Source of the DNA: Planctomycetota bacterium
Lineage (GTDB): Bacteria; Planctomycetota; UBA1135; GCA-002686595
Direction: 5' to 3'
NCBI GenBank assembly: GCA_020853575.1
Contig: JADYYP010000053.1
Coordinates: 186,001 to 250,000, forward strand
DNA: 64,000 bases
Position 1 is the first letter of the stretch, and each line of letters opens with the position of its first letter. Shown in pieces: positions 7,680-25,448 of this stretch. The translations under genes were made by a program, and so were the position numbers. The notes beneath the pieces were generated by a model. That model was not told the DNA's origin and searched no databases. It worked only from the letters and a program-made list of their open reading frames with translations.

Positions 7680-7768
7680 CGGTATCGAGAACCAGTCCCT
7701 ATCGTAGGGCGAGCCCGTCCGTGTCGGTCGTCATCACCGTCCCCTGGTCGCGTTTGGAGTCGCTTCCG

Positions 7769-8803
7769 ATGCAGCCTTCGTTGCTTGCCGCGTGCCTCGC
7801 GTTTCCGGCCGTGTCCAGTTCGAGCCCGATGCCGCCGGGCGAGACCGTCGCGCTCGAGTCGCGCCCCGTCCGTTCGTGGCAGGTGGTCATGCCGGCCGAG
7901 CGCTCGATTCCGGTCGGCTCCGGGATTGCCTTCGCACACGCGGGCGGCCCGCGCTTCATCGCGCACAGCGAGGGGGAACGCCTGCGCGTCGACGTCGACG
8001 GCGACGGCACTTTGGATGCGTTGGTCGAGGGCGAGGAGGGCTTCGTCACGCTCACTCAAACCGCGGCCGACGGCCGCGTCACGCAGTACTCGGCGCGGCT
8101 GACGCGCACGGCCGGACAGCCTTGGCACTACACCTTCGGCAGCGTGCGCACGGGCGAGTTCCGCGGGACCAAGCTCCAACTCGTCGACCAGAACCTCAAT
8201 GGACGGTTCGACGACTTCGGTGAGGACGCACTCGTGGTCGGTCGCGACGTGGCGGCCAGTTTCCTCTCGCGAGTGGTTTCGATCGAGGGCCAGCTCTACG
8301 AGCTCGAGGTCGCCAGCGACGGCACGAGCTGCACGCTCTCACCCCATCTCGGCGAGTCCGGCGTGCTCGATCTCGGGGGCGCCTTCCGCAGCCAAGCGAA
8401 GCTGCACGCCGCGATCGTCGTCAGCGACGACGGCCGGAACTCCTTCAGCGTTGCTCGAGCCACAGGTGGTCTGCGGGTCCCCGCGGGGGCCTATCGACTG
8501 CACAGCGGCCAAATCGTGCTCTCCGATGCGCACGCGACGATCAAGGGCGGCTCTCGCAGTCGCTTCGAGGTCGCCTCCGGCGCGATCGTGCGCCCCGAGT
8601 GGGGTGGACCGGTGCGCGCGGAGTTCGCGGTGCAGCGCGACGGCGACCAGCTCGGATTCACGCCCTGGGACATCTGGTACTACGGAGCGTTGGGCGAGGA
8701 GTACTCGAACTTCATGCCGCTGGGGACCAGCCCGGAGTTCACCATCCGAGAGCGCCAGAGCGGCGACGTGCTGGTGTACACGCGCTTCCCAGGCAACTGC
8801 TGA
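7769..8803 (+). CDS. secreted beta-rich protein; frame interrupted by UGA (candidate selenoprotein, part before UGA)
   Basis: The ATG at 7769 follows GGAGT with an eight-base spacer. It gives a short signal peptide (MQPSLLAACLAFPAVSSSS) and 344 residues up to a TGA at 8801-8803. Two EF-hand/dockerin-like calcium loops are visible, DVDGDGTLD near residue 73 and DQNLNGRFDDFGED near 143. The rest is polar beta-type sequence, probably exported. I do not recognise the family. The protein stops abruptly in the middle of a strand-like region at PGNC, and the same frame continues with excellent coding character after the TGA (see 8804-8968). Read this entry together with that one: either the real stop is here, or the UGA is decoded and the protein has 399 residues. 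Confidence 0.8.
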   Translation: MQPSLLAACLAFPAVSSSSPMPPGETVALESRPVRSWQVVMPAERSIPVGSGIAFAHAGGPRFIAHSEGERLRVDVDGDGTLDALVEGEEGFVTLTQTAADGRVTQYSARLTRTAGQPWHYTFGSVRTGEFRGTKLQLVDQNLNGRFDDFGEDALVVGRDVAASFLSRVVSIEGQLYELEVASDGTSCTLSPHLGESGVLDLGGAFRSQAKLHAAIVVSDDGRNSFSVARATGGLRVPAGAYRLHSGQIVLSDAHATIKGGSRSRFEVASGAIVRPEWGGPVRAEFAVQRDGDQLGFTPWDIWYYGALGEEYSNFMPLGTSPEFTIRERQSGDVLVYTRFPGNC

Positions 8804-8968
8804 GGCTTCGGTTTCAAGCCGGTCGCCGTGAGCGTGCCGGCCAACGCGGAGATCTCGGTCGAGATGAAGGCGGACAACTGGGGCTTCGGTCGGGTCCAGG
8901 GAACTCCGCGCGACGCCAAGCTCTCCGCGCGGCCCGCAGGCTCGGACAAGCCCACCCAAGGCATCTGA
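8804..8968 (+). other. in-frame continuation after UGA (candidate selenocysteine read-through)
   Basis: After the TGA the same frame stays open for 54 codons to a second TGA at 8966-8968. Of these codons 48 end in G or C, as in the genes around it. The peptide (starting GFGFKPVAVSVPANAEI) reads as the natural end of the preceding beta domain, with alternating strand residues and a closing NWGFGRVQG motif. The join would be Cys-Sec (PGNC-U-GFGF). What is seen is continuity of frame and coding character. Selenocysteine is inferred; a nonsense mutation, a sequencing error or ordinary stop are alternatives. No selA, selB, selC or selD gene lies in this window. Confidence 0.5.
8818..8841 (+). promoter_or_regulatory. 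candidate bacterial SECIS-like hairpin
   Basis: GCCGG (8818-8822) pairs with CCGGC (8837-8841), followed inward by a U-G pair, one bulge and CGC/GCG (8824-8826 with 8832-8834). The apical loop CGUGA (8827-8831) starts 24 bases after the UGA and has a G in its first two positions. These features match the general description of bacterial SECIS elements. The upper stem is short, so support is moderate. Confidence 0.35.
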
Positions 8969-9047: not shown

Positions 9048-11336
9048 TTGACGTTGCTCCAGATCTCAACGCCTTGGTCGCGCGCGTGTGCGCTCGCGAT
9101 CGCCCTGTCGCCTTGGTCCGCGGCGCAAGCCAGCGTCGCTCGCATTCCCGTGCGCATCGTCGATGGCCGACTGGTCGTCGCCTGTCAGATCTCGGCCGGC
9201 AAGCGCATCGCCGCGAACTTGTTCGTCGATTACGCCGCGCCGGTCGGCCTGACGCTGCACAACCGCGCGGCCCAGGGCATCGAGGCCGAGGCCGACGATG
9301 GTTCGACGCGCCCGATCACGGTGCACTTGCCCGATCTCAACATCGTCGTCGAGCAGCGCGGCATCGGCGACGACAAGGCGCTCGAGCGCTTCACCAAGTG
9401 GTACAGCAAGGAACTCGGCGAGAGTCCAGTCGTCGGCTCGCTGGGCGCGACCGTGCTCTGCAACTACCACGCGGTGTTCGACCTCGGCGCCGGGTTCCTC
9501 GAGCTCTCGGCGCCGCGTGCCGCGTCCGACGAGCGTCCGAGCGCCGGGGAAGGTTCCGTGCTCGTTCCGCTGACGATTTTCAACGACATCGTGTGGGTTC
9601 CTGTCGGATTCGGCCGCGGGCGATCCGCGGCGCTGGCCTTGAGCTCGTCGCGCTACGAGACGTGGATCGACGCCCAGCTCGCCGCGGAGCTCGGCGCGCC
9701 AGCGGGTGATCTCGCCCCGGTCATGCTCGGTGGTTTCGACATCGCGCGCTACGTTCCGCTGCGACCCGAGGACACGCGACAGACGCATCCCGACGGAGTG
9801 TTCGGGCGCACGGGTCTCGATCTGCTCGAGCACTTCCGCGTCGAGGTCGACCGCGTGAACCGCTGGTCGCGTTGGACCGAGACCCGCGCCGCCGACCTCG
9901 CCACGGCGGAGACCGAGTTCTACCGCGCGCGACTCGCGGAGGATCCGAACGCGACCGAGCGTTGGCTCGACGCGCATCCAGGGCAACGCCTGGTGCCGGA
10001 AGCAGCCGCGCTGCTGCTCGATCAGCGCTTGGCCGAGCACTGCGACGCGGAGTCGATGAAACGCGCGTTGGGTCACGTGCACGGTTCGCGACCGGCCGAC
10101 CTGAAGGCTACGGGCGCGCTCGAGTTGCTCCAGAAGCTGCGCCAGGCGGCCGAGCCGCAGTACGCGCTCGCGGCAGGCGATCTCGGGCTGTCCAGTGGTC
10201 GCGAGGACCGCTATCCGGACGCGGTGCACAAGCTGCACGCGGCCATGGGCTCGATCCAACTCGAGGCCGGCCAGCGCCGCGACGCGTGGAAGCACCTGTT
10301 GTCCGCGGCCTTCGGGCTGCCCGACGACGGGCCGCTCAATCTCGACCTGGCGCGCTGCTACGAAGAGGACGGACGCTACTCGCGCGCTTTCTCGCGCTAC
10401 CTGCAGGCGTTGCTTTCGCCGGACAGCGGCGCCGCGGCGATCGCGGGGCTCGAGCGCGTTCAACCCCAGATCGAGGACGTCGAGGACTTCTCGGTCGAGT
10501 CGATCGAAAAGCTGATCGAGGGCAAGGTCGAGGGCTTCGGCGCAGCGACCAAGTACTCGCCCGAGGAAGGCGCCGCCACGACGCGCGTCGTGGCGCTCGA
10601 GTACTACACCAACGCTCACTTCGAGCCCGAGATCGGCGTCACGCTGGCGCGCGATGGACTGCGCGATCACTTCGGTCGCGCCTTCACCACGCAGATCACC
10701 TATGCAGTGCCCGAGCCCGAGCTCGACCCGCTGGTCAACCCGCTGTCGCTGTACATGAGCCGCACCTACGGCGGCGCTCAGATCGTGCACCTGGCCGACG
10801 GCGTCGCGGAGTTGCCCCCCGGCGCGCGCTCGCGCTTCAAGCAGGAGGTCTACGACGCCTGCCGCGCCGCTGTGCTGCAGCGCCTCGAGATCCCGACCGA
10901 GCACGAGATCGAGATCGAGGCCCACGCCGATCGCGAGCACGTCCACGGGAGCGTGGTGTTCCGCGGGCCGGAAGACGATCTGATCGCCCAGGTGCTGCTC
11001 GTCGAGCGCGGCGTTCTGTTCCCGGGCAAGAGCAAGGTCGTGATCCACCGCAACGTCGCGCGCGCGGCGTTGACGGACGAGCTCGAGGGCCTCGACTATC
11101 TGCCGAAGCTGGAGACGATGCAGGTCGACTTCGATCGCTCTTTTGCCGAAATCGTCGAGGAAAACACGCGCTTCTTGGACGAGCGCGAGGCCGCGGGCGA
11201 AGGCCACGTATCGCGTGTCGCGGTGCGCATCGATCCGCGCCAAGCGAGTGTGGTCGCGCTCCTGCGCCGCCGCGACACCGGCGAGGTCGTGCAGAGCGCG
11301 GTCGTCGACGCCGTGTTGCCGGAGGAGTGGCGGTGA
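9048..11336 (+). CDS. exported protein, degenerate retropepsin-like N-terminus plus repeat region (762 aa)
   Basis: First gene of a seven-gene operon. The TTG start at 9048 is the only one giving a signal peptide (cleavage near residues 26-28, AAQA-S). Residues 30-270 look like a degenerate retropepsin-type aspartic protease fold: LFVDYAAPVGL stands where an active enzyme has a D-T/S-G motif, so activity is unlikely. Residues 330-480 are TPR-like helices; 500-762 is an alpha/beta region I do not recognise. The start codon of the next gene overlaps its stop (GTGA at 11333-11336), so the two are translationally coupled. Its place before the MoxR/VWA genes suggests a periplasmic or envelope role, but no function can be assigned. 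Confidence 0.8.
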   Translation: MTLLQISTPWSRACALAIALSPWSAAQASVARIPVRIVDGRLVVACQISAGKRIAANLFVDYAAPVGLTLHNRAAQGIEAEADDGSTRPITVHLPDLNIVVEQRGIGDDKALERFTKWYSKELGESPVVGSLGATVLCNYHAVFDLGAGFLELSAPRAASDERPSAGEGSVLVPLTIFNDIVWVPVGFGRGRSAALALSSSRYETWIDAQLAAELGAPAGDLAPVMLGGFDIARYVPLRPEDTRQTHPDGVFGRTGLDLLEHFRVEVDRVNRWSRWTETRAADLATAETEFYRARLAEDPNATERWLDAHPGQRLVPEAAALLLDQRLAEHCDAESMKRALGHVHGSRPADLKATGALELLQKLRQAAEPQYALAAGDLGLSSGREDRYPDAVHKLHAAMGSIQLEAGQRRDAWKHLLSAAFGLPDDGPLNLDLARCYEEDGRYSRAFSRYLQALLSPDSGAAAIAGLERVQPQIEDVEDFSVESIEKLIEGKVEGFGAATKYSPEEGAATTRVVALEYYTNAHFEPEIGVTLARDGLRDHFGRAFTTQITYAVPEPELDPLVNPLSLYMSRTYGGAQIVHLADGVAELPPGARSRFKQEVYDACRAAVLQRLEIPTEHEIEIEAHADREHVHGSVVFRGPEDDLIAQVLLVERGVLFPGKSKVVIHRNVARAALTDELEGLDYLPKLETMQVDFDRSFAEIVEENTRFLDEREAAGEGHVSRVAVRIDPRQASVVALLRRRDTGEVVQSAVVDAVLPEEWR

Positions 11337-12823
11337 GCACCTGGGAGAGCTCACAACCGCTGCGCGACCTCGAGCACCTCGGCCGGGGCGTCGCGCGCGA
11401 GCTGCGAGCTCGGCGTGCGCGATCGCGCGCTTCCGAGCGTTGGGCCTCGTTGGGCTGGTTCATGCTCGGCGTGCCTGCGGTGGCCATCGTCCAGCGCCTC
11501 TTCGATCGCGAAACGGACGGTGGCTGGGTGCTGAGCGCGGTGATCGCGGGCGTCGCGCTGGGCGTGCCGCTGGTCGCGACGTTGCTCGCTCGCGTGCTCG
11601 CGGGTCGGACAGCGATCGATGCGCGCGATGGGCTGGCGCGGTTGGACCACGAGCTCGGCGCCGAGGGGCGCTTGCAGGCCGCGCACGAATTCCTCGGAGC
11701 GGCCGAGCGTTCGACGTTCATGGCTGCGGCCATCGACGACGCGTTGCCGTTCCTCGCCCGTGCGCGCACGCACGAGCTCACGCCTGCGCCGGCGCAGCAA
11801 GCAGCGCGCTCCTCGTGGCTCGCACCGCTCCTGGCACTCGCTCTGTGCGCGGTGATCGCGTTCGTGCCATCGTTGAGGCGCGCCTCCGAGGCCGCGGTCG
11901 AAACGCCTGTGGCGCTGGCCACAGTTCCCGACGTGCAGCGCTCCAAACGCGAGCGCGACGCGCGCACCGGGGACGAGCTGCGCGTCGAGCCGCCGGCGCT
12001 CGAACGCGAGCAGAAACAGCGCGAAGCAGGCTCGAACTCGAAGTCGGACGAGCGGGCTGCCTCGCGCGAGCCCGAGCGCGAAGCGAAGGAAAGCACCGGC
12101 AAGACCGGCGGCGGACGTTCGGCCGAGGCGACACCGACGAGCTCGACCAGCGACTCGCGCGGCTTCCAATCGTCGCAATCCCAACCGTCGCAGCCCGCCG
12201 AGCAGAGCAAGAGCCCGCCGAAGAAGCCCAAGCCGCCGAAGACGCGCGAGCCCGATGCCAGCGCCAAGAAGAAGCTCGACCAACAGTCGGGCTCGACCGC
12301 GGGCAAGGGCGTGGGGTCGGGCTCGAGCAAGAATCCGGGCTCGACCGAGTGGGAGAGCAAGGACCAGGTTTCGAGCGACGAGGAAGAGCCGCTCGACGAC
12401 GACCAGGACGTCGACGACGAGTCCGACGAATCCGAGGCGCGCGGCGGATTGCAGCCCAGCCTGCGTGATCGGCGACCGGCGGTGAATCGCGACCTGACGA
12501 TCGGCTTCGGCAATCAAGTCAACCCCGACGCCAACGGTCGCGGTGGTCCCAGCGAGCAGAAGAAGTCGCGCGGCGTCGCCTCGCTGGTGCTGGGCGTGCC
12601 GATCCCCGACCACGTCAAGGGCCAGCCCAATCCGGGCAAGACCAAGATCACACAGGAGCGCGTCGAACCGCGCGCGGAGAACGCCGAGCCGCTCTCTGCT
12701 GCGCCGCGCACGCCGCGCGCCGATGCGCTCGGACGACTGACGCGCCGCGAGCTCTCGCCCTGGATGCGCGAGCTGGTGCGCGACTATTTCCTTTCGATGG
12801 CCAAGCCGAACGAGAACCCGTGA
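11333..12823 (+). CDS. membrane protein with long charged low-complexity region (496 aa)
   Basis: GTG at 11333 overlaps the previous stop codon. Three hydrophobic segments are visible near residues 43-58, 65-92 and 162-180; the long remainder (185-496) is charged and repetitive, rich in Lys, Glu, Ser, Pro and Asp, including an acidic cluster (EEEPLDDDQDVDDESDESE). Such a layout resembles the poorly conserved DUF4175-like membrane proteins found beside MoxR/DUF58 genes in other phyla, but I cannot confirm membership. Its stop overlaps the moxR start by one base (TGATG, 12821-12825). It may anchor the complex formed by the following gene products. Confidence 0.78.
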   Translation: MSTWESSQPLRDLEHLGRGVARELRARRARSRASERWASLGWFMLGVPAVAIVQRLFDRETDGGWVLSAVIAGVALGVPLVATLLARVLAGRTAIDARDGLARLDHELGAEGRLQAAHEFLGAAERSTFMAAAIDDALPFLARARTHELTPAPAQQAARSSWLAPLLALALCAVIAFVPSLRRASEAAVETPVALATVPDVQRSKRERDARTGDELRVEPPALEREQKQREAGSNSKSDERAASREPEREAKESTGKTGGGRSAEATPTSSTSDSRGFQSSQSQPSQPAEQSKSPPKKPKPPKTREPDASAKKKLDQQSGSTAGKGVGSGSSKNPGSTEWESKDQVSSDEEEPLDDDQDVDDESDESEARGGLQPSLRDRRPAVNRDLTIGFGNQVNPDANGRGGPSEQKKSRGVASLVLGVPIPDHVKGQPNPGKTKITQERVEPRAENAEPLSAAPRTPRADALGRLTRRELSPWMRELVRDYFLSMAKPNENP

Positions 12824-13839
12824 TGTCGACCCAAGGATCCGTCGCCGATGCCGGCGCCGCGCGCGAACAAGCCCAACGTTTCCGAGCGACCTACGCCAAG
12901 ATCCGCGACGAGGTCGGCCGCGCGATGGTCGGCCAAGACGAGATCGTCGAGGGCGTGCTCTCGGCCTTGTTCGCCGGCGGCCACGTGTTGCTCGAGGGCG
13001 TGCCGGGCTTGGGCAAGACATTGCTCGTGCGCACCTTGGGCAACGCGGTCGACCTGGCGTTCTCGCGCGTGCAGTTCACGCCCGACATGATGCCCGCGGA
13101 CATCCAAGGCACGATGATCCTGGTCGAGACCGAGGGTGGCGGTCACAAGCTCGAGTTCCAGGAGGGACCGTTGGTCGCGAACCTCGTGCTCGCCGACGAG
13201 ATCAACCGCGCGACGCCCAAGACGCAGTCGGCACTGCTCGAAGCGATGCAGGAGAAGCAGATTTCCGTGGGGCGGCGCACGCTTCCGTTGCCCGAGCCTT
13301 TCTGCGTGATGGCGACGCAGAACCCCGTCGAGCAAGAAGGCACGTACCCGTTGCCCGAGGCGCAGCTCGACCGCTTCCTGTTCAAGCTCGTCGTCGGCTA
13401 TCCGCAAGAGCGCGAGTACCACGAGATCCTCAATCGCACGACCAGTGACAGCGACACGCAAGTGCGCAAGGTCTCGAGCGCCGCCGAGGTGCTCGCGCTG
13501 CGCCACGTCGTGCGCTCCGTGCCGGTCCCGGAGAATGCGCAGAACTACGCCGTGCGCTTGGTCATGGGCACGCAGCCCAAGTCCGAGTACTCCACGAAGC
13601 TGGTCAACGAGATGGTGGCGCTCGGATCGTCGCCGCGCGGTGCGCAGGCGTTGCTGCTGGGCGGCAAGGTCAAGGCGCTGCTCGCGGGTCGCTTCGCGGT
13701 CTCGAGCGAGGACATCGCCGCGGTCGCGCCGGCCGTGCTGCGCCACCGCGTGATGGTCAACTTCCGCGCGCACTCCGAGGGCATCGGGGCCGAGCAAGTC
13801 GTCAACGACGTGCTTTCCAACGTGCAGGCCGCGCGCTGA
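12823..13839 (+). CDS. moxR: MoxR-family AAA+ ATPase
   Basis: A 338-residue cytoplasmic AAA+ chaperone-like ATPase. The Walker A motif GVPGLGKT is at residues 59-66, the Walker B/sensor string LADEINRATPKTQSALLEAM starts near 124, and the conserved MATQNPVEQEGTYPLPEAQL follows. MoxR ATPases act with von Willebrand factor A proteins encoded beside them to mature or remodel protein complexes. ATG at 12823 was preferred to the GTG at 12820 because it gives the common TGATG overlap. The next gene begins seven bases after its stop. Confidence 0.95.
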   Translation: MSTQGSVADAGAAREQAQRFRATYAKIRDEVGRAMVGQDEIVEGVLSALFAGGHVLLEGVPGLGKTLLVRTLGNAVDLAFSRVQFTPDMMPADIQGTMILVETEGGGHKLEFQEGPLVANLVLADEINRATPKTQSALLEAMQEKQISVGRRTLPLPEPFCVMATQNPVEQEGTYPLPEAQLDRFLFKLVVGYPQEREYHEILNRTTSDSDTQVRKVSSAAEVLALRHVVRSVPVPENAQNYAVRLVMGTQPKSEYSTKLVNEMVALGSSPRGAQALLLGGKVKALLAGRFAVSSEDIAAVAPAVLRHRVMVNFRAHSEGIGAEQVVNDVLSNVQAAR

Positions 13840-13846
13840 ATCGTCG

Positions 13847-14746
13847 ATGGCCGTGCAGCGTATTCCGGCAGACGAGCTGTGTGACGCGCGCTTCTTGGCG
13901 TCGCTCGAGCACCTGCGTGTCGTCGCCAAGCGCGTCGCTCCGCGCGGTCGTTTCGCCGAGCAACGCTCGCGCGACAAGGGCAGCGGCATCGAGTTCAAGG
14001 ACTACCGTCCGTACTCGGCGGGCGACGACTTGCGCGGCATCGACTGGAACGTGTACCGGCGCTTGGGGCGCGTGTTCCTGCGCTTGTTCGAGGAGCTCGA
14101 GGACCTACCGCTGTACGTCCTGCCGGACATCTCGCGCAGCGCGTACCTCGAAACTCCGCCGCGCGCGCGCGCGGGATTGCGCTGCGCGCTGGCGATGGCC
14201 GCGATCAGTCTCGGTCAGCACGATCGCGTCGGCGTGTTTCCGTTCGCCGATGACTTGAGCGTCCTGCTGCGGCCGACCGGCGGCAAGGGACGCGTGCTCG
14301 AGCTCGCGCGGCGCTTGGGTGAGATCGAGCCCGGGGGCGAGACGGACTTCGAGCGCTCGCTGGCCACGTTCCGCGGCTTGCGGCTGCGCGAGGGCCTGGT
14401 GTGCGTGGTCTCCGACTTCTTCGACCCGCGCGGAATCGAGGCCGTGACCAGCGCGCTCGGCAAGTTGCAGCACCGACTACTGCTCGTGCGACTGGTGCGC
14501 CAGAGCGATGCGCGACCGGAGCTCGCGGGCGACGTGCGTTTGGTCGACTGCGAGAGCGGCGACGTCTCCGATGTCTCGATCACCTCGGAGGTGCTCGCGC
14601 GTTATCGAGCCGCCTACGCGCAGTTCGTCGAGCACCTCGCGAACTTCGCTCGCTCGCGCGGAGCGGGTCTGCTCGATCTCGACGTCGAGCGCGATGTGAT
14701 CGCGCAGCTGGAGCGTTTGTTCGCCTCGGGAGCCTACACCGCATGA
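13847..14746 (+). CDS. DUF58 protein
   Basis: The 299-residue protein shows the DUF58 signature FKDYRPYSAGDDLRGIDWNV near residues 46-65, preceded by the RGRFAEQRS region. DUF58 proteins have a von Willebrand-like fold, lack a well-defined enzyme activity and almost always stand directly after moxR. No membrane segment is seen. The stop codon overlaps the next start (ATGA, 14743-14746), so it is coupled to the BatA-like gene. Its most likely role is as the adaptor between MoxR and the membrane VWA proteins. Confidence 0.93.
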   Translation: MAVQRIPADELCDARFLASLEHLRVVAKRVAPRGRFAEQRSRDKGSGIEFKDYRPYSAGDDLRGIDWNVYRRLGRVFLRLFEELEDLPLYVLPDISRSAYLETPPRARAGLRCALAMAAISLGQHDRVGVFPFADDLSVLLRPTGGKGRVLELARRLGEIEPGGETDFERSLATFRGLRLREGLVCVVSDFFDPRGIEAVTSALGKLQHRLLLVRLVRQSDARPELAGDVRLVDCESGDVSDVSITSEVLARYRAAYAQFVEHLANFARSRGAGLLDLDVERDVIAQLERLFASGAYTA

Positions 14747-16449
14747 GCTTGACGTGGCTTTCGGGCGCGGTGTTCGCGGCGGGGCTCGCGGCGCTCGCCG
14801 CGTTGCTGTTCGCGATGCAACGACTGCGCGTGCGGCACCGTGACGTCGAGGTGGTGACCACGTTGTTCTGGAAGGCCGCCGTGAAGGACACCCGGGCGCG
14901 CGTGTTCGTGCAGCGCTTTCGCCACCCGCTGGCCTACGCGTTGATCCTGGCGAGCGCGTCGCTCGTGTGGTGGGCCGTCGCGGGGCCGCGACTGGCGTCC
15001 CGGTCGGAGGTCGAGCACGTGCTCGTCGTCGACGGTTCCGCGGGCATGGGTTGGGGATCGCGCCTGCGCGACGCACTGGCCGCCACAACCGAACGCGCGC
15101 GAGCGTTGCCCCGCGAGTCGACGCGTGTCGTGCTCGCCGGCGCGCGGCTCGAGACAATGCTCGATTTCGGCGAGGAACTGCCGCTGTTCGAGCGCCGCGC
15201 CGCCGCACTCGAGGTCGCGCCGTGTCCTTCGACCGTCCAGCGCGCGTTGCTGGCGCTGTGCGCCACCGCGGCCCCTTCCGGTGGGCGGCGGATCGAGATC
15301 TTCGGTGACGGGCCGATCGACCCGGCGGTTGCGGACTTGTTGCCTCCGGGCACGACGATCGCGCGCGCCGAGCCCGTCGCCGCGTCACGCGCGGGCAATG
15401 CCGGAATCGTCTCGCTCGGGATCGAAGAGGCCGCTTCGGGAGCCTGGGATCGAGTCGACGTGCTCGTGCGGGTCGGCGGAGAACTCGCGTCGACCTGCGA
15501 GCTGTCGCTGACGCTCGATGGCACACCGCTCGCCAACGTGCAGCGCGACCAGGGATCCGACGGAGTCGAGTGGCTGGCGCGCGATGTCGCGGCGCTCGGC
15601 GGGACCTTGGATGCGCGCGTGCTCGGTGCCGATGCGCTCGCCGCGGACGACGGCGCGACGCTGGTGCTGCCCGTGCGACCGCGCATTCGCGTGCAAGTCG
15701 GCGCGGGCGTTCCGAGCAGAGTCGACAGCGCGCTGCGCTTCGATCCCGGAGTCGAGCTCGTCGAGGCCGATCCCGACGTGCTCGTGCGCGGAGCCGGCGA
15801 CGCGCAGCTCGCTGGCGTCCCCACGCTCGAGCTCACCGACGCCACCGAGGGCACGAGCGCTTTCGTCGTGCGCCGAGCGGACGTCGACGATCCCGATGCG
15901 CGGTTGCGCGAGGCCTTCGCCGCGCTCGGATTGGGCGAGATCGATTCGACGGCACTCGCCGATCAAGCCGGCCGCGAGATCGAGCTCACGCTGGAGCCCG
16001 CCGCGACGCCGAGCATCTCGATGTGGGGCGCGCTCGCTGGCCCCGACTACGATTTCGCTCGTTCACGTGCATTCCCGCTGTTCCTCGCGCGCGCCGTGCG
16101 CGTGCTCGCAGGCGTCGAGGAGCTTGCGTTCGAGGCCGCGGCGGGGCGCGCGGCCGATGTGCAGCTCGCTCCGCTCCAAGGGGACGGCGCGCGCCGAGCC
16201 CTCGACTCTCTCGGCGCGGAGTTCCGCTGGCCGCGCGCGCAATCGTGGAGCTCGAGCTCGGGAGCTCGCGTCCAAGCCGCACTTCTCGATCCGCAGGCGA
16301 CCCATGCGCTGGAGTCGAGCACGGTCCCGCCGCGCGAGTCGGCCTCGCCAGGCGCATCGTCGGCCGAGCTCCTGCCCTGGATCGTGCTCGCCGCGCTGGG
16401 CTTGCTGGCGCTCGAGTGGTGGCTGGTCCGAACGGAGCGCATGCCGTGA
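14743..16449 (+). CDS. BatA-like membrane protein with degenerate VWA domain (568 aa)
   Basis: Two N-terminal hydrophobic segments (about 5-25 and 63-82) with the family-typical LRVRHRDVEVVTTLFWK between them match the N-terminal region of BatA/aerotolerance-type proteins. A von Willebrand-like domain follows from about residue 90, but the metal-binding motif reads DGSAG instead of DxSxS, so metal binding is doubtful. A final membrane segment lies near 544-562. The topology suggests a large periplasmic part. Start and stop overlap both neighbours (ATGA upstream, GTGA downstream), so it is made in fixed proportion with DUF58 and the next VWA protein. Confidence 0.87.
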   Translation: MSLTWLSGAVFAAGLAALAALLFAMQRLRVRHRDVEVVTTLFWKAAVKDTRARVFVQRFRHPLAYALILASASLVWWAVAGPRLASRSEVEHVLVVDGSAGMGWGSRLRDALAATTERARALPRESTRVVLAGARLETMLDFGEELPLFERRAAALEVAPCPSTVQRALLALCATAAPSGGRRIEIFGDGPIDPAVADLLPPGTTIARAEPVAASRAGNAGIVSLGIEEAASGAWDRVDVLVRVGGELASTCELSLTLDGTPLANVQRDQGSDGVEWLARDVAALGGTLDARVLGADALAADDGATLVLPVRPRIRVQVGAGVPSRVDSALRFDPGVELVEADPDVLVRGAGDAQLAGVPTLELTDATEGTSAFVVRRADVDDPDARLREAFAALGLGEIDSTALADQAGREIELTLEPAATPSISMWGALAGPDYDFARSRAFPLFLARAVRVLAGVEELAFEAAAGRAADVQLAPLQGDGARRALDSLGAEFRWPRAQSWSSSSGARVQAALLDPQATHALESSTVPPRESASPGASSAELLPWIVLAALGLLALEWWLVRTERMP

Positions 16450-18920
16450 GCGTCACGTTCCTCGCGCCGCATTGGTTGTGGCTGCTCTCGGCCGTTCCGC
16501 TCTTGTTGCTGGTTCGGCCGCGCGCGCGCATTCCGGGTCACGCGCTGCTGCGGGCCATCGTGTTCGTGGCATTGGTGACCGCTTTGGCGCGGCCCGTCGT
16601 GTGGACCTCGGATGCGTCCGAGCGCGCGGTGTTCGTCGTCGATGCGAGCGCGAGCTCCGCCAGCGACGAGCGCGAGCTGGCGTCCAGGCTCCAGTCGACC
16701 GTCCAAGGCTTGCCGCGCGGCGCTCGCGCGTCGTTGGTCCTCGTGGGCGGCGAGCCCGCGCGCTGGAGCACGTTGTTCGATCACGTTTCCCAGGTCGCCG
16801 GCCCGCGCTCGTCGCTGTCCGCGGCGCTCGACGCGGCCCTGCTCGAGATTCCCGCCGGAGCGCGCGGCTCGGTCACGCTGCTCACCGACGCTCGTGCGAC
16901 CGATCGGCGCTTCGGGGATGCGCTGATCGCGTTCGAGGAGCGTGGAATCCCGCTGCACGTCGCTGCCTTGCCGGCGCGGACGCGCGCGGCGCACGTCAGC
17001 GAGCTTCGAGTTCCGCGCCTGACTCGCGTTGGGCATTCGAGCTCGCTCGAGATCACGCTGGTCGGTGATGAGGGTTCGACGCGCGTGACGCTGTCTGGCC
17101 CCGAGGGGGAGATCGGCGCCAGCGATGCCGTGTTCTTGGACGGGCGGGCGACGCTGCACTTCGATTGGGAGCCGCGCAGCGCGGGCTTCGTCGCGCTCGA
17201 AGCGCGCGCCGGCGAGCATTCGCTGCGGCGGCTGATCGCCGTGCAGGAGCCATTGAACGTGCTGTACCTGGGTCAGCGCGTGCAGGGCGGCGCCGCGCGG
17301 CTCGCGGACCTGGTCGGGCCCGGACTGCGCCTCGAGGGCTGGGCGCCGTCCGACTCCGGCCAACCGCCGGAGCTGGAGCGCTTCGATCTGGTGATCGTCG
17401 ACGACATGCCCGCGGAGACACTCGGAGCCGAGCTGCAGCGCGCGCTCGTCGCGGCCATCCGCGATCGCGGCCTGGGCCTGCTCGCCAGCGGTGGTGAGGC
17501 GGCCTTCGGGCCCGGCGGATACCACGATTCGCTGCTCGCGGAGGCGCTCCCGGTCGAGGCCGTGCAGAAGGAAGAGAAGCGCGATCCGAGCACCACCTTG
17601 GTGCTGATCATCGACACCTCGGGCTCGATGGTCGGCGAGCGCATCCAGCTCGCCAAGGAAGTCGCGCGATTGGCGATGTCGCGTCTCTTGCCGCACGACA
17701 AGGTCGGCATCGTCGAGTTCTACGGCGCGAAGCGCTGGGCCGCGCCGATCCAGCCGGCCTCGAACTCGATCGATCTCGCGCGCGCCATCAACCGCATGGA
17801 CGCCGGCGGTGGAACGGTGATCTTGCCGGCCATCGAAGAGGCCTTCTACGGCCTGCAGAACGTGCAGACGCGCTACAAGCACGTGCTCGTGATCACCGAC
17901 GGCGGCGTCGAGAGCGGAGCCTTCGAGCCGCTGCTGCGCCGCATGGCGGACGAGGGCATCAACGTCTCCACGGTGCTGACCGGACCGGAAGCGCACAGTG
18001 AGTTCCTCGTCAACATCGCCAACTGGGGCAAGGGTCGCTTCTACTCCGTGCCCGACCGTTTCAACTTGCCCGAGGTGCTGCTGAAGCAGCCGACGAGCTC
18101 GCGCCTGCCGAGCTACAAGCCCGGACGCTTCGCGCTCGACGCGCGCGGCGGCAGCGGATGGTGGGGCGGAGTGGAGCGCGCGCAGGTGCCCGAGGTCGCG
18201 GGCTACGTCGAGACCAGCGCGCGCCCCGGAGCGGAAGTGTTGTTGGAGGTGCGCGGGGAACGCGACCCGTTGCTCGCGACGTGGCGCTACGGTCTGGGTC
18301 GAGTGACGACCTTCGCCAGCGAGCCCGTCGGGCCCGGGACCGAGCCCTGGCGTTCGTGGAGCGGCTACGGAGCACTGTTGGCGCGCGTGTTGTCGCGCAC
18401 GGCGGACGACGGCCGCGCGAAGTTCGCGTTTCGCATCGAGCGCCGCGGCCACGAGCTCGAGTTGCTGGCCTTGCGCCGGCCGGGGATCGACGACCAGCCC
18501 GCGGCGCGCACGGTCGATGCCGATGGCGCGACGCTGCGCGAGCTGCGCTTCGAGCACCGTGCCCCGAACGTCTTCGTGGCGCGCTGGATCGCGGGTGCCG
18601 AACGCGAGGTGCGCGTCCTCGCGAGCAGCGCCGACGATCCGCGCGAGCCACTGCAACGCTTGGCGGCGAGTGCGCGCGACGACGAAGTCGACGAACTGGC
18701 CGTCGATCCCCGACGCGTGTTCGACCTCGCGCGCGCCGCGGCCGTCACCGGAGGCGAGCTCACGCCCCTGGAAGGCCTGGAGCGCTTCCAACCGCGTGCC
18801 GGTGGCCCCGAGCGCGCCGATCGCCTGCGCGAGCTCGCTCCCTGGCTGTGCGCCGTGGCGCTCGCTGTCTATCTGTTCGACGTGTTCCACCGCCGCCGCG
18901 ACCGTCGCCGAATGGCCTGA
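16446..18920 (+). CDS. membrane VWA-domain protein (824 aa)
   Basis: GTG at 16446 overlaps the preceding stop. The N terminus has BatA-like hydrophobic segments (LWLLSAVPLLLLV; LLRAIVFVALVTALA). Residues 45-180 form a degenerate VWA-like domain, 250-360 a glutamine-amidotransferase-like domain ending GGEAAFGPGGY, and from about 385 an intact VWA domain with the metal site DTSGSM near 390 and the later ITDGG. A membrane helix closes the protein (about 800-818). This is the architecture of the large Bat-operon proteins often annotated as GATase1-like VWA proteins. It is probably the main metal-dependent binding partner that MoxR and DUF58 serve. The next gene starts three bases after its stop. 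Confidence 0.9.
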   Translation: MSVTFLAPHWLWLLSAVPLLLLVRPRARIPGHALLRAIVFVALVTALARPVVWTSDASERAVFVVDASASSASDERELASRLQSTVQGLPRGARASLVLVGGEPARWSTLFDHVSQVAGPRSSLSAALDAALLEIPAGARGSVTLLTDARATDRRFGDALIAFEERGIPLHVAALPARTRAAHVSELRVPRLTRVGHSSSLEITLVGDEGSTRVTLSGPEGEIGASDAVFLDGRATLHFDWEPRSAGFVALEARAGEHSLRRLIAVQEPLNVLYLGQRVQGGAARLADLVGPGLRLEGWAPSDSGQPPELERFDLVIVDDMPAETLGAELQRALVAAIRDRGLGLLASGGEAAFGPGGYHDSLLAEALPVEAVQKEEKRDPSTTLVLIIDTSGSMVGERIQLAKEVARLAMSRLLPHDKVGIVEFYGAKRWAAPIQPASNSIDLARAINRMDAGGGTVILPAIEEAFYGLQNVQTRYKHVLVITDGGVESGAFEPLLRRMADEGINVSTVLTGPEAHSEFLVNIANWGKGRFYSVPDRFNLPEVLLKQPTSSRLPSYKPGRFALDARGGSGWWGGVERAQVPEVAGYVETSARPGAEVLLEVRGERDPLLATWRYGLGRVTTFASEPVGPGTEPWRSWSGYGALLARVLSRTADDGRAKFAFRIERRGHELELLALRRPGIDDQPAARTVDADGATLRELRFEHRAPNVFVARWIAGAEREVRVLASSADDPREPLQRLAASARDDEVDELAVDPRRVFDLARAAAVTGGELTPLEGLERFQPRAGGPERADRLRELAPWLCAVALAVYLFDVFHRRRDRRRMA

Positions 18921-18923
18921 AGC

Positions 18924-21900
18924 ATGCGTTTCCTTCGACATTTCGCGCTGTTGCTCGCACTGCTCGGCGTTTCGTTGCCCGCACCGGCGCAGCGCAAGCC
19001 CGCGACCGAGACCGAGCTCTCCGCGCGCGCCGTCGAAGAGCTCGAGCGGTTGATCCACGAGCCTCAGCCGAGCTTCGAGGACTGGGAAGGCGTGCAGCGA
19101 GCCGCACTCGCGGCGCACGGCGAGTCGACGTTGCTGGTCAAAGCGCTGGAGCAACGCATCGAGTCCGCGTCGACGGACGATGCCACGCGCCGCGAGCTGC
19201 TGCGCGGTCTGACGCACGTCCTGCATCGCGAGGGCCGTCTCGAGGAGGCGCTGGCCAAGGTCGATGCCGCGCTCGCGCTGGGGAAGAGCGCCGACCTGTT
19301 GCTGCGGCGCGCGCAGTTGCTCGACGCGCTCGCCAAGGTCGACGATGCGTTGGCCGCCTACGAGGAGTTGCGGGCGAGCTCGACCGACGGCGCGCTAATC
19401 GGACGCATCGAGTTGCGCATGGCACTACTCGAAGCGACCAAGAGCGACACGGCGACGGCTTCGAAAGCCGGCGACGGCCCGCGCGCGGTCGCTGGCTTGG
19501 TGGCCTTGCGCCCGGCGAGCGGTTCGGCCGTGATCGCCCGGGCCGGTGCGCTCGGCGCGGCGGACGCGGGCCTCTCCGAAGGCGAGCCCATCGGCGAGGA
19601 AGGCCCGGAATCCCCGCTATATCGCTATGCCAAGCAGCCGGGGCGCGAGCGCGAGCTGGTCAATCGCGCCGCGGTCGTGCTCGCCATGCTCGGCCGCCCG
19701 AACGAGGCGCTCGCGCTGTTCCAGACCTCCGGCGAGGGTTCGGAGCTGTTCCGCCAGGAGATTCGGCTCGCCGAATGGGCGCTGGCCGCCAAGGCGCCGA
19801 CGCAAGCGCAGGAGCATGCCTGGAAGGCGCGCGGCGCTGCGACGCTCAAGCGCGACCGGCTGTACGCGCTGGCGGTCTTGGTCGAGGCCCATCGCGCCGA
19901 CGAGAGCCTGCCCGCGCTGATCGACAAGCTCGCGCGGACGCCCGACTTGGACGCGGACTCGCGCAGCGTGTGGATCGACCTGCTGCGCGAGACCGCGCGC
20001 GTCGACGAGGCCTTGCGGCTGTTCCGTGAAGGCGCGGAGCAGGGCTTCACCGCGGAGATGCGCCGTGAATTGCTCGAGATGTGCCGCGAGGCAGGGCGCG
20101 ACCAGGAGCTGATCGCGACCTACGGCGAGCTGATCGAGGCCGAGCCGCGGGTCATCGAATGGCGCGAAGGTCTCTCGCGTTATTGGCTGGAGCGCGGCCA
20201 GCGGACGGACGCGGAAGCGGTGTGGACCTCGCTGTTCGAGCTCGAGCTCGACGTGCCCCACACGCTCGAGGCGGCGCGCGCGGCACGCGACCTCGGACTC
20301 GAGAGCATCGCGCGCCGTGCCGCGGAGCGCTGCTTCGGTGACACCACGGGCGGCCTCGAGGCGCGCATGTTCTTGTTCGAGCTCGAGGTGCGCGCTGGAC
20401 GCGTCGAGAAGGCTCTGGAGGAGCTGGAGGCCTTCGATCGTGCCGCGGACGCCTCGTCTCCGTTGCGCCTCCAGCTCGCCGAGGCCTTCGAGCGCATCGG
20501 GCAGAAGCGGCGCGCGGTGGACGTGCTCGAAGCGATCCGCCAGCGCCGCGGGGCGGACGAGGCCGAGGAAGACCTCGAAATGCGCTTGGCTTGGCTGCTC
20601 TCCGAAGTCGGCGACGAGCGCACCGCGCTCGAGCGCTGGCGCAACTTGTGGCGGCGTGTTTCCTCGCTATCGCGGCGCCGGCAGGTCGAGGATCGCTTGC
20701 TGGCGGTCGCCTCGCGACTGGGCAACATCTCGGACATCGCGGTCGAGCTCGAGGAGAAGCTCGCCGACGGTCGCGCCGATGACCGCGACGCCGCGTTGCT
20801 GATCCGCTTGTACATGAAGGTCGGCGACCCCGTGTCCGCCGCCGAGATCGTCGACGAGCACATGAAGCAGAAGGGTGGCGACCCGCTCGCGACGTTGCAG
20901 GAGAAGGCGCGCGTCTATTTGGGCGGCAAGGACTACTACCACTTCGAGAAGACCGTCCGAAAGCTGATCGACGTCGACCCGGAGAACAAGGGCGACCACC
21001 TGCGACAGCTGGCGATGAGCAATCTCGAGCGCGGCAAGCCGCAGGAAGCGCGCGCGGTGCTCGAGCAACTCGCGCGCGACGAGAGTCCCAGCGACGCCGC
21101 CGAGTTCGAGGCCGGGGTGCTCACGCTCGCCGGACTGCACGAAGACGCCGCGCGCACCTACCGGCGCGGACTCGCCGCGCACCCCGAGCGCATCGATTCG
21201 AATCTGCTCTTGGCGAACACGATGCGCACGTTGCGCCAGACCGAGCGCGCGATCGGCATGTTCCAGTACCTGGCCGAGAACGCGGACAAGGACGACCTGT
21301 TCACGGTCGCGATCGACGGTTTGCTCAACATGCGCGCGCGCGAGCCGCATCTGCGCTGGGCATTGCGCGTCACGCTCGAGCGCTTGGCTGCGCGCCACGA
21401 CAAGATGTATCTGTACCAGCTGGTTGCGGACCTGTGCGACGAGCTGAAGGACAACGCCGGCCGCATGCGCGCGCTCGAGGGCTCGCTGGCGATCGCTGCC
21501 GAGCAACGCGCGCAAGTGCTGCGCGAGCTGATGGACGTCAGCCAGGGCGATGCCACGAACTCGTACACGGTGGTCAACGGAGTGCTCGTACAGAGGCGCA
21601 CGGGCGGCGACGATCAACGCCGCTTGGCCTACGGCCGGCGCTTGATCGGACTCGACGACGTGGTCCCGCCGCAGGTGTATCTCGAGCTGGGCGAGTCGTT
21701 CCTGCGCGGCGGTGAGATCTCGAACGCCTCGAAGACCTTCTCGATGGCGCGCGACGTGCCGGACTATGCCGCATTCCAGCGCCAGGTGGCGCAGTCCTTC
21801 GAGAACGAGCAGTTCATCGAGCACGCCCTGGGCATCTACGAGCGCTCGATGGCGAGCCAAGGCGTCGATGTCGGCTTGCTGCTGAAGACCGGCGAGCTGC

Positions 21901-24900
21901 ACGAGCAACTCGGGCGCGACGAGCGCGCCGCGGAGCTGTACCTGCGCGGCATCGACGTGTTGATCTCGCGCCACCCACTCGCGACGGCGAGCGCTGCCAA
22001 GAAGAAGGAGCAGGACGAGGACGACTACTGGGGCTGGAATGCGCAGAACGTGGGCGAGTTCGAGCGCTATTTGCCGGCGCTGCGCTCGGGCTTCATCGCC
22101 TCGGCGAGCAGCGAGCTCGTCGCACGGACGTTCGCCGACCAGCGCGCGAGCTTGGAGGCCGACCTGCGCGCCGCCATGGCCGAGCCCAAGAGCGCGGACC
22201 CCGCGCCCGTGCTCGAGTCCTTCCCGCGCTTGCTGCATCGCGCGGACTTGCTGCGACAACTCGCGCTGCGCTTCGGCCTGTACGACGAGATCGACGCGCT
22301 GGATCTGGAGCTCTTGCGCGCGTTCGAAGGCGACACCAGCCTGCTCGAGCGCACCGCGCGCGAACGGGCCAAGCTGGGATTCACGGAGCGCGCCCAGCGG
22401 CTGGTCGAGGCCAGCGGGCGGCCGGAAGCCGAGCGCAAGACGGTGCTGGCGGGCTTGGGCATCGCGGGCGGCACGACGGAACGCGCGGGGCTCGCGCTCG
22501 CCGACGTCGTCGGGCGTTTGCTCCCGACCTTGGTCGAGGGCGATCGCGACAAGGCCAGCACCTTGCTGCGCAGCGTGCGCCTGGGCGACACCACCAAGGA
22601 CGACCTGCCACAGCTCCAGCTGCTGGTCTCCGCGGCGCTGTTCCTCGACGACGACGGCGCGATCGTGCAGCTCGGTCGACACACGGTGCGCGCACTCGTG
22701 CAGCACGGCCAGGGCTACGAGAGCCGCGAGCAGGTCGAGGCCATCCTCAAGCGCGCCAAGGGCGCCGTCGACGCCGAGTCGTACGGGCTGGTGGTCGACG
22801 CCTTGGTCGAGGCGCTCAACGCGAAGAAGGAAGCGTTCCCGGCCTTTTCCTACACGCTGCGCCGCTTTCAGCGCGAGCTCGGACGGCCCTTGTTCACGCT
22901 CGAGCAGATCGAGAAGCAGATCGAGGACTGCCTGCCCGACAAGACCTGGCTGGCTTCGAGCTTGATCGAGCTCTGCCCGCCCGAGGCGCGCCTCGACTTG
23001 GTGCAACGCATCTGGTCGAAGGTGCCGGCGACGGCCAAGGCCGACATGGCGCTCGACGTGCTGACGGCCTCGGCCGGTGAAGTGTCGAACGCCCTGGCCG
23101 AGTTCGTCGTCGGTGGTTTCCAGGAAGGGCTGGAGAAGACCGACGATCCGCAGATGTTGACCTACGGCGTGCGCAACGCCTTCGAGACAGCGCGCGAGAA
23201 CCTGGGACTGGTCGAGCGCATCGCCGCCATCGCCGCCAAGAAGTTCCCCACCGAAGTGACCTTCGCGGCGACGCTGGCCGCCGCGCGGGCGAAGCTCGGT
23301 CGCGATGCCGAGGCGTTGACCGCGATGCGCGCGACGTTGCCGCTGATCGCGGAGGCCGAGGAGGAGTGGGACGCGCGCGAGGCGAGCGAGGCTCTGGTCG
23401 CGGGCTTCGTGCCCCGGCATACCGAGGAGCTCTCCAAGGAAATCGAGGCGCTCGAGGCCAAGTCCTCGAACACGGCGCGCTTCGCCGAGCTGCGCACGCA
23501 GATCTACGAGAAGCTCGGCGACGAACAGGCGGCGTTCGCGGTGCTCGAGCAAGCCTACGCGAAACGGCCGGATGACCTGGAGGCGATCCGCGCGCTGTAC
23601 CACGCCGTCAGCGCTGGCGACGACGAGCCACGCCGCTTGGCGTTGCTCGAGAAGATCGTCGCCAAGGAGAAGAGCGCGACCTGGTGGCGCAGCGCGCTGG
23701 TCTCGAGCTGGCAGGCGGCACGCAATCCACTGCGCGCGCTCGAGGTCAAGCGCAAGGGCGAGGGTGCGCCGGAGGAGAAGCACGACGAAGGCGCGCGCAA
23801 GCTCGGCGAGGCGACGCTCGAAGAGGTCTCCAAGGCGATCGACGCCGGCCAAGCCGAGGACGCGCGCGCGACCTATCGGCGCACCTGGCGGCGTTATGGA
23901 CAGACTGGCGAGTCGCGCTTCGCTTTCTACGGCTTCAGCGGATCGCGCGAGCTCGTTTGGCCCAGCAAGGAGCGGCGCGCGACGGAGCGCACGCGCGGCG
24001 GGCTCGACGACTTGAAGCTCGACCAACCGCTGGAGAAGGAAGAGCGGAAGTCACGCGACGCCTACGAGGTCCTGGCCGAGCAGGGCTTCGGCTTGGGCGA
24101 GCTGCGCCGGCAAGTGCGCTCGCTCGGCGAGAGCGAGCTGCAAAGCTCGCGCGGGTTGTTGCGCGGCCTGCAACGCGCGGAAGTGGCCACCAGCGGCGGT
24201 GAGCGAGCTCTCGCGACCTGGGTCGACGCCACGCGCCGCGGCGACGCTGGCACCGTCGAGCGCGCGCTGCTCCTGAGCTACTTCGAGGACCACATCGACT
24301 CGCTCGGGCCCGACGATCGCGCGCTGGTGGCGCAGCTCACGCCCGCGGTGCATCCGCTCGACGGCGCGCAGTTGCGTGCGCTGGCACGCTTGCAGGCCAA
24401 GCTCGGCGACTCCGCGCGCACCTCGCGCATCTATCAATGGTGCGCCACGCTGGCGACCAGCAGCCGCTGGGGCGCGCAGGGCCGCGGGTCGATCTCCGCG
24501 CACGAATTGCTCGAGGAAGTCCCCAAGTACCTGCAAGGCCAGGAACTGCTCGATGCCGTGGGCGCGATCCTCTCGCGCTGCGATCCCGGCGGCTACACCT
24601 GGGAGCGCGACGGCTACTTCCAGCTCGTCCTCCAGACCTGGCTCGACATCGGTGGCCCCGCGAAGGCGCGCGAGCGTTGCGCGAAGGAACTCGAGACCGT
24701 GCTCGACCTGCAGCGCGGACTGATGCGCGAGCCCGCACAGGTCGCGGCCAAGCTGCTCGCGCGCTCCGGCGACTTCGAGCGAGGCGTGCGAGCGCTGGAG
24801 ATCGCACTGTGTCGGTTCGACGCTTCGCAAGTGGTCGTCGACCCCGAGGACGTCTATTCGCTGCAATGGAAGCTGCAGCCGCAGTCCCTCGGATCGAACG

Positions 24901-25448
24901 AGGTGCGCGAGCTGTTCCCGGTGCAACTGGGCTCGGGACTCGACGATGCCCGGTGGATCGAGCTCGTCGCGCGTGCTGCACTGCGTTGGCACGCCGAGAA
25001 GCGGTTGCAGACGCAAGCGGCGGAGCTGTTGTTCAGCGCGCTGGCGGTGCGCGCGCGCGCGTTGCAGCTGGACGTGGCGAGCGAGCTGGTCGACCGCGTA
25101 GCGGAGCTGGGCGCCAACCCCGACTCGGACCAGCATCTGGTGCTCGACCTGCAGCGCCTGGTGGGGCGCGAAGCCCAAGCACGGGCGATCGAGGACGACT
25201 TGCTCGCGCGTCAGTGCATCAATCCCCAGCGACTGCCGGAGCTGTGGGACCGCGTTCGCCCCGAAGTCGGCCCCGAACGTACCTACGAGCTGTTCGCGCA
25301 CGCCGCGGAATTCGCTCCGCACCCCGAGATCGTCGCGCGCTTGATCTCGACCGCGCGCGAATTGGGCCGCGCCGAGGACGTCGCTCGCCTCGAACAGTTG
25401 CGCGAGGCCTCGCTGGCGGCGGCCAAGGAGCTGGAAGTCGAGTGGTGA
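18924..25448 (+). CDS. giant exported tetratricopeptide-repeat protein (2174 aa)
   Basis: The last and largest gene of the operon encodes 2174 residues with a signal peptide (MRFLRHFALLLALLGVSLPAPAQ, residues 1-23) and no further membrane segment. Nearly all of it is helical repeat of TPR type with recurrent pairs such as ALAKVDAALALGKSADLLLRRAQLL. No enzyme motif is recognised. The position after the MoxR/DUF58/VWA genes parallels BatB/BatE-type TPR proteins but at many times their length, which suggests a very long periplasmic scaffold. Its stop codon abuts the stop codon of the convergent DMT transporter with no base between them, so the two transcripts must overlap. Confidence 0.88.
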   Translation: MRFLRHFALLLALLGVSLPAPAQRKPATETELSARAVEELERLIHEPQPSFEDWEGVQRAALAAHGESTLLVKALEQRIESASTDDATRRELLRGLTHVLHREGRLEEALAKVDAALALGKSADLLLRRAQLLDALAKVDDALAAYEELRASSTDGALIGRIELRMALLEATKSDTATASKAGDGPRAVAGLVALRPASGSAVIARAGALGAADAGLSEGEPIGEEGPESPLYRYAKQPGRERELVNRAAVVLAMLGRPNEALALFQTSGEGSELFRQEIRLAEWALAAKAPTQAQEHAWKARGAATLKRDRLYALAVLVEAHRADESLPALIDKLARTPDLDADSRSVWIDLLRETARVDEALRLFREGAEQGFTAEMRRELLEMCREAGRDQELIATYGELIEAEPRVIEWREGLSRYWLERGQRTDAEAVWTSLFELELDVPHTLEAARAARDLGLESIARRAAERCFGDTTGGLEARMFLFELEVRAGRVEKALEELEAFDRAADASSPLRLQLAEAFERIGQKRRAVDVLEAIRQRRGADEAEEDLEMRLAWLLSEVGDERTALERWRNLWRRVSSLSRRRQVEDRLLAVASRLGNISDIAVELEEKLADGRADDRDAALLIRLYMKVGDPVSAAEIVDEHMKQKGGDPLATLQEKARVYLGGKDYYHFEKTVRKLIDVDPENKGDHLRQLAMSNLERGKPQEARAVLEQLARDESPSDAAEFEAGVLTLAGLHEDAARTYRRGLAAHPERIDSNLLLANTMRTLRQTERAIGMFQYLAENADKDDLFTVAIDGLLNMRAREPHLRWALRVTLERLAARHDKMYLYQLVADLCDELKDNAGRMRALEGSLAIAAEQRAQVLRELMDVSQGDATNSYTVVNGVLVQRRTGGDDQRRLAYGRRLIGLDDVVPPQVYLELGESFLRGGEISNASKTFSMARDVPDYAAFQRQVAQSFENEQFIEHALGIYERSMASQGVDVGLLLKTGELHEQLGRDERAAELYLRGIDVLISRHPLATASAAKKKEQDEDDYWGWNAQNVGEFERYLPALRSGFIASASSELVARTFADQRASLEADLRAAMAEPKSADPAPVLESFPRLLHRADLLRQLALRFGLYDEIDALDLELLRAFEGDTSLLERTARERAKLGFTERAQRLVEASGRPEAERKTVLAGLGIAGGTTERAGLALADVVGRLLPTLVEGDRDKASTLLRSVRLGDTTKDDLPQLQLLVSAALFLDDDGAIVQLGRHTVRALVQHGQGYESREQVEAILKRAKGAVDAESYGLVVDALVEALNAKKEAFPAFSYTLRRFQRELGRPLFTLEQIEKQIEDCLPDKTWLASSLIELCPPEARLDLVQRIWSKVPATAKADMALDVLTASAGEVSNALAEFVVGGFQEGLEKTDDPQMLTYGVRNAFETARENLGLVERIAAIAAKKFPTEVTFAATLAAARAKLGRDAEALTAMRATLPLIAEAEEEWDAREASEALVAGFVPRHTEELSKEIEALEAKSSNTARFAELRTQIYEKLGDEQAAFAVLEQAYAKRPDDLEAIRALYHAVSAGDDEPRRLALLEKIVAKEKSATWWRSALVSSWQAARNPLRALEVKRKGEGAPEEKHDEGARKLGEATLEEVSKAIDAGQAEDARATYRRTWRRYGQTGESRFAFYGFSGSRELVWPSKERRATERTRGGLDDLKLDQPLEKEERKSRDAYEVLAEQGFGLGELRRQVRSLGESELQSSRGLLRGLQRAEVATSGGERALATWVDATRRGDAGTVERALLLSYFEDHIDSLGPDDRALVAQLTPAVHPLDGAQLRALARLQAKLGDSARTSRIYQWCATLATSSRWGAQGRGSISAHELLEEVPKYLQGQELLDAVGAILSRCDPGGYTWERDGYFQLVLQTWLDIGGPAKARERCAKELETVLDLQRGLMREPAQVAAKLLARSGDFERGVRALEIALCRFDASQVVVDPEDVYSLQWKLQPQSLGSNEVRELFPVQLGSGLDDARWIELVARAALRWHAEKRLQTQAAELLFSALAVRARALQLDVASELVDRVAELGANPDSDQHLVLDLQRLVGREAQARAIEDDLLARQCINPQRLPELWDRVRPEVGPERTYELFAHAAEFAPHPEIVARLISTARELGRAEDVARLEQLREASLAAAKELEVEW

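Follow-up and report, generated by a model that had tools for sequence, protein, structure and literature searches.

The DNA analysed here (the window) is a stretch of 64,000 nucleotides within contig 53 of a 6.17 Mb Planctomycetota assembly. It carries a forward-strand gene whose frame, open from 7769 to 8965, is interrupted only by a single UGA codon, and which heads a run of genes resembling the Bacteroides aerotolerance (Bat) operons (Table 1). A GTG at 7721 is an alternative start for this gene. The Bat-type run ends with an open reading frame of 2174 residues (18924-25448) that has a signal-like N-terminus and apparently contains repeats.

Table 1. Features of the putative selenoprotein gene and the genes that follow it, in window coordinates.
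Feature	Position	Strand	Remarks
Putative ribosome-binding site, GGAG	7756-7759	+	9 nt upstream of ATG 7769; read from the sequence
Putative selenoprotein gene, read through the UGA	7769-8965	+	399 aa; Sec would be residue 345, Cys is residue 344; stop 8966-8968
Hydrophobic N-terminus, putative export signal	7769-7840	+	Inferred; charge weak in the window protein
Conserved acidic loop DVDGDG..D, calcium-loop-like	7991-8008	+	Residues about 75-80; from the alignment; weak EF-hand/FG-GAP matches
Second conserved acidic loop, DQNLNGRFDDFGEDA	8186-8230	+	Residues about 140-154; D140, G145 and D153 invariant; from the alignment
C-terminal Ig/FnIII-like beta-sandwich domain (predicted), Sec in an inter-strand loop	8621-8938	+	
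Vicinal Cys-Sec pair (Sec inferred), TGC TGA	8798-8803	+	
54-codon coding tail	8804-8965	+	Completes the domain
Putative bacterial SECIS hairpin	8818-8841	+	Arms 8818-8826 and 8832-8841; loop CGTGA 8827-8831; bulged U 8835
Downstream operon gene 1, TPR-like	9048-11336	+	About 760 aa; conserved in the group; no Pfam family above cut-off
Downstream operon gene 2, membrane/charged linker	11333-12823	+	No Pfam family
MoxR-type AAA ATPase	12820-13839	+	AAA_3, E 1e-61
DUF58 protein	13847-14746	+	E 7e-30
VWA-domain protein, Bat-type operon	15570-18920	+	Frame listed from 15570; true start probably later

The UGA lies at 8801-8803, directly after the residues PGNC and in the frame of a presumed secreted protein, exactly where the first-pass annotation had placed it. 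That annotation read the codon as selenocysteine (Sec) and described the open tail beyond it correctly: 48 of its 54 codons have G or C as the third base (GC3 is 0.87 in the body of the gene), and its terminal stop is a second TGA. A standard gene finder would stop at 8803, and the locus could then be taken for a pseudogene, or for the result of a frameshift or sequencing error, with the gene ending at that codon. Against this, the tail shows amino-acid constraint (pN < pS) in most close pairs of homologues. Synonymous change in the tail is also below that just upstream of the UGA in most of these pairs, as expected for an RNA element that overlaps the code.

Searches covered 81 genomes of the same family, and then 392 genomes of the phylum. 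Around 50 matches in the 81 genomes extend into the tail, most of them with an in-frame TGA that falls in the column of window residue 345, within the motif FPGxC-U-GxGF.PV.VSVP or GGC-U-GGGF. The wider search recovered homologues in many other families of Planctomycetota, and even very divergent members have the TGA at this position. The site is UGA in 73 homologues, and two further genes have UGA one codon upstream. The homologues do not all end there, which would have told against recoding: coding runs on for 36-84 codons (mostly 36-55) through a conserved domain. The same UGA, followed by a conserved tail, in about 75 homologues from many families excludes a sequencing error and refutes the pseudogene and frameshift readings, which can hardly be entertained. 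No homologue was found on a plasmid, and a pattern-based contig scan reaching beyond Planctomycetota matched one locus only (L047). There are also remote relatives of about 700 aa (G000:C45:177229-177891 and many genomes), in which the similarity is confined to the central portion of the protein (residues about 115-313) and the matched stretch does not include the Sec domain.

Most sequences have Sec at the aligned site. Among 77 sequences, the pair of residues formed by the site and its predecessor is CU in 52, UU in seven, CC in five, SU in four, GU in three, and TU, SC and UC in two each (U denoting UGA). Alignment thus places Cys at the site in seven relatives that have no stop there, either as CC (L048-L052) or as SC (L053 and L089). 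The UC genes are L058 and L059. On a maximum-likelihood tree with midpoint rooting, most of which is Sec, the site must have switched between Sec and Cys independently at least twice. Tandem UGA-UGA codons occur in L043, L056, L057, L062, L064, L066 and L067; these predict two adjacent selenocysteines, apparently decoded with one hairpin.

None of the homologues has UAA or UAG at the recoding site, and their terminal stop varies freely among TAA, TAG and TGA. Reassignment of UGA across the whole genome, for example to Trp or Gly, would equally produce an in-frame UGA, but it is less credible even than an error: UGA serves as the terminal stop in the window gene and many relatives, stop-free relatives have Cys rather than Trp or Gly at the site, and the tRNA with a UCA anticodon is tRNA-Sec.

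The hairpin at 8818-8841 is real and, as had been claimed for it, has a G in the first two positions of its loop, which begins at the 24th base after the UGA. It also meets the published model of bacterial SECIS elements (bSECIS), which specifies a loop of 3-9 nt that lies 16-37 nt from the UGA and has a G among its first two bases, a stem of 4-16 bp and a minimum free energy of at most -7.5 (PMC13188914); the window hairpin has -14.7 kcal/mol and its loop follows after 23 nt. Taken alone, the window hairpin is no better than chance, being equalled in 19% of synonymous-codon resamplings. A single hairpin of this kind is unremarkable, and the case therefore had to be settled by comparison.

Across the 75 homologues, the hairpin goes far beyond chance. 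A hairpin with all six pairs (6/6) and a five-base loop CG[U/G]GN is present in 73 of the 75 UGA genes, as against 0.9% of random positions at the same loci. The commonest loops are CGUGA, CGUGC, CGGGC and CGGGA. Two architectures occur: one has an unbroken six-pair stem (GUACUC/GAGUAC, CUACUC/GAGUAG, GUACAC/GUGUAC, GUACGC/GCGUAC and others), while the other, to which the window hairpin belongs, has a bulged U (GGUCGC/GCG-U-GCC). In the unbroken type, 100% of cells are paired, three pairs have changed on both sides, and the covariation score was reached in none of 500 shuffles; pair 5-13, for example, is UA in eight sequences, AU in six and GC in four. The score of the bulged type likewise lies above all shuffles. 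A synonymous-codon control over all genes gave 4.27 +/- 0.15 against 6.19 observed, although, the genes being related, the spread of this control is narrower than it should be and gives no valid probability.

The position of the hairpin is equally constrained. In 49 of the 52 CU genes, 23 nt separate the first Sec codon from the start of the loop, and the same holds for the SU, TU and UC genes and most UU genes. Since the distance remains 23 nt in the UC genes, where the Sec codon lies one codon upstream, the hairpin tracks the UGA and not the alignment column. At the corresponding place in six Cys paralogues, five have at most four of the six pairs and one has five. The SC gene L089 (G255:C885), whose codon at the site is TGC, retains a complete SECIS hairpin and is probably a recent change from Sec to Cys. 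As a counterpoint, it shows that coding sequence alone can leave a hairpin in place.

The machinery for Sec insertion, whose absence would have refuted the proposal, is encoded in the window's genome. Matches to selA (509 bits), selB (336 bits), selD (312 bits) and tRNA-Sec with a TCA anticodon (71 bits) all lie on one contig (C81), and all exceed the curated cut-offs. An Rfam scan of the selB locus found no tRNA-Sec, which is about 75 kb distant; at the UGA site itself, Rfam gave chance matches only. The selD gene of this genome (L073, G000:C81:107012-107956) also contains a TGA in frame (context AGUAGK), and its product is probably a selenoprotein itself. Within the family, the presence of selB does not discriminate, as 73 of the 81 genomes carry it with or without a homologue. 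For selA the contrast is only mild: it was matched in 39 of 42 genomes with UGA forms and in 20 of 30 without a full-length member. Among genomes with UGA forms, G249 and G336 gave no selA match and G252 only a truncated one; these are plausibly incomplete assemblies.

Linkage between the family and the machinery is seen in divergent lineages. In four divergent genomes (G384, G141, G251 and G388), a homologue adjoins sel genes on the same strand. The order is homologue-selD-selA-selB at two of these loci (L129 and L130), homologue-selD-selA with selB further on at a third (L128), and homologue-selA-selD at the fourth (L127). On a more speculative reading, this position suggests that these bacteria maintain Sec decoding partly for the sake of this family.

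A single gene with a UGA and a coding tail would look the same if the UGA were a site of near-cognate readthrough, or a regulated stop yielding two isoforms, with Sec not the point. Such an explanation is very improbable in view of the exclusive use of UGA at the site, the Cys of stop-free relatives in the same column, SECIS covariation at fixed spacing, the tandem UGA codons, the linkage to sel operons and the presence of the machinery; some regulation by selenium supply remains possible. The Sec reading is, by comparison, strongly supported by the machinery, the UGA homologues, the replacement by Cys and the covariation of the hairpin. Judged from comparative sequence data and without experiment, it is near-certain that the UGA is recoded with the hairpin as its signal, and there is very little doubt that recoding at 8801-8803 would be to Sec. 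The identity of the residue remains inferred, in the absence of peptide, 75Se or activity data.

The AlphaFold model of the protein is confident and all-beta (pLDDT 90.8, pTM 0.87). It bears out the earlier suggestion that the C-terminal domain would break off at the UGA, as strands 352-355, 362-370 and 374-380 all come after it. Sec is predicted to sit in a loop flanked by strands 334-339 and 352-355, among the less certain parts of this domain. Taken alone, the domain has Ig/FnIII sandwich neighbours at TM about 0.5; neither the whole-chain nor the domain fold search gave a significant E-value, and profile matches to an Ig light chain indicate the fold type at most. A thioredoxin fold with a UxxC or CxxU motif was also considered and is not met by the all-beta model with its Ig/FnIII-like neighbours.

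Export and calcium binding, both part of the first-pass description, are only partly borne out. Inspection by eye finds typical signal peptides with KK or RR in homologues L021, L045 and L046, and the export of the family is inferred from these; the N-terminus of the window protein itself is weak in charge. The calcium-loop assignment is backed by the conserved motifs DxDGDGxxD and DQNGNGRFxDxGxDA, with nothing beyond these and a weak EF-hand match. The same description set the exported Cys-Sec pair apart from the usual cytoplasmic selenoenzymes. Exported selenoproteins such as NiFeSe hydrogenase and FdnG are already known, so it was an overstatement to set export itself apart; what is unusual is the fold, along with the vicinal pair and the tandem UGA.

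The family appears to be new, together with its fold and its tandem-UGA members, while bacterial selenoproteins as a kind are known. Like these in general, it combines a UGA and a hairpin further downstream, whose loop lies 16-37 nt away and has G among its first two bases, with Cys homologues and SelA/B/C/D machinery in the genome. It differs in having an Ig/FnIII-like rather than the common thioredoxin fold, in being probably exported, and in the tandem UGA of one subgroup. Vicinal Cys-Sec pairs are known elsewhere. Mammalian-type thioredoxin reductase has a C-terminal GCUG motif, with Cys-Cys forms in other species. The resemblance, a vicinal Cys-Sec followed by Gly, is one of chemistry only: the new family has no flavoprotein domain and no sequence relation to the reductase, and its pair lies in a beta-sandwich loop rather than at the C-terminus. 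Adjacent Cys and Sec are also shared with the CU-motif selenoproteins HgcA, SaoL, SaoC, SaoB, MbdU, KCU-star and Csac_0668, whose domains are unrelated and whose NCBIfam families are matched by none of 39 members searched. None of these 39 matched any NCBIfam or Pfam family above its curated cut-off (best E 0.02 in NCBIfam and 0.004 for Pfam EF-hand). A halocyanin/cupredoxin profile matched weakly (E 0.045-0.064), and no family match was found in the PDB. Nothing comparable is listed among the 119 prokaryotic selenoprotein families catalogued in May 2026, and Planctomycetota go unmentioned in the accompanying review (PMC13188914). Selenoproteins have been reported from two planctomycete isolates (PMC4807772); no report of this family was found in the literature, in a comparison that did not extend to the candidate table (S9) of that paper.

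Gene neighbourhood gives a hint of function. In the window's group, the selenoprotein gene is followed by genes for the TPR-like protein, the membrane protein, MoxR, DUF58, a BatA-like protein and a VWA protein. This run was present in 11 of 22 regions compared, a sample biased towards near relatives. The Bat-type cluster (MoxR, DUF58, BatA/VWA) is a neighbour in the closest group only, and divergent members sit outside Bat operons. According to one proposal, Bat proteins send reducing power out into the periplasm, although Leptospira bat mutants had no oxidative phenotype and Bat function itself is unproven; the available part of that account describes no selenoprotein in Bat operons (PMC3557215).

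In the mechanism proposed here, SelB and tRNA-Sec(UCA) would decode the UGA as Sec, directed by the hairpin, and the exported protein would display the vicinal Cys-Sec in a loop of its predicted beta-sandwich. The pair would most likely cycle between a selenol/thiol and a selenylsulfide. In the cell envelope it may act as a reductant of disulfides, peroxides or oxidised proteins and exchange electrons with partners encoded in the MoxR-DUF58-BatA/VWA operon; targets and partners alike are inferred. In many members, the pair holds the only Cys of the protein, and is thus the sole possible intramolecular redox couple there. The Cys at -1 is not universal, being replaced by S, T or G in some members, and the mechanism therefore cannot depend on a strict vicinal selenylsulfide throughout the family. 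Some of these have a Cys at -3 or +2 instead; a movable resolving thiol would fit this pattern, which at the same time cautions against a rigid vicinal mechanism.

The main rival as to function is metal binding: the protein would be exported to handle metals, and its Sec-Cys pair would be a ligand for soft metals (e.g. mercury, arsenic or copper), not an electron-transfer couple. A loop carrying a UU or CU pair would have an affinity for soft metals, and most catalogued CU-motif selenoproteins are related to metals or organometals (HgcA, SaoL, SaoC, SaoB, MbdU; PMC13188914). This role is rather unlikely, given the tolerance of S, T and G at -1, the lack of any sequence relation to those families, and the absence of recognised metal-resistance neighbours in the compared regions, where few genes are annotated. 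As a whole, the redox reading, an exported selenoprotein whose Cys-Sec pair acts as a redox couple with Bat-operon partners, is highly probable. Of its inferred parts, a redox function in the envelope is favoured with modest confidence, and the partnership with the Bat operon is tentative, at slightly less than even chances.

These findings add a widespread selenoprotein family, with a fold unusual for Sec, to a phylum whose selenoproteome is little studied. Standard annotation ends such genes at the UGA, at the cost of the active-site residue and of part of the domain around it. The natural series of CC, CU, UC and UU at one site makes the advantage of Sec over Cys testable. It is conceivable, if speculative, that this is a phylum-wide, uncatalogued family of exported proteins, with Sec (often as CU or UU) in an Ig-like sandwich, that provides a Bat-type redox system of the envelope with its terminal selenothiol and would supply the proposed but undemonstrated reducing arm. 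The family also provides a specific candidate for the chemistry not yet accounted for in Bat-type operons.
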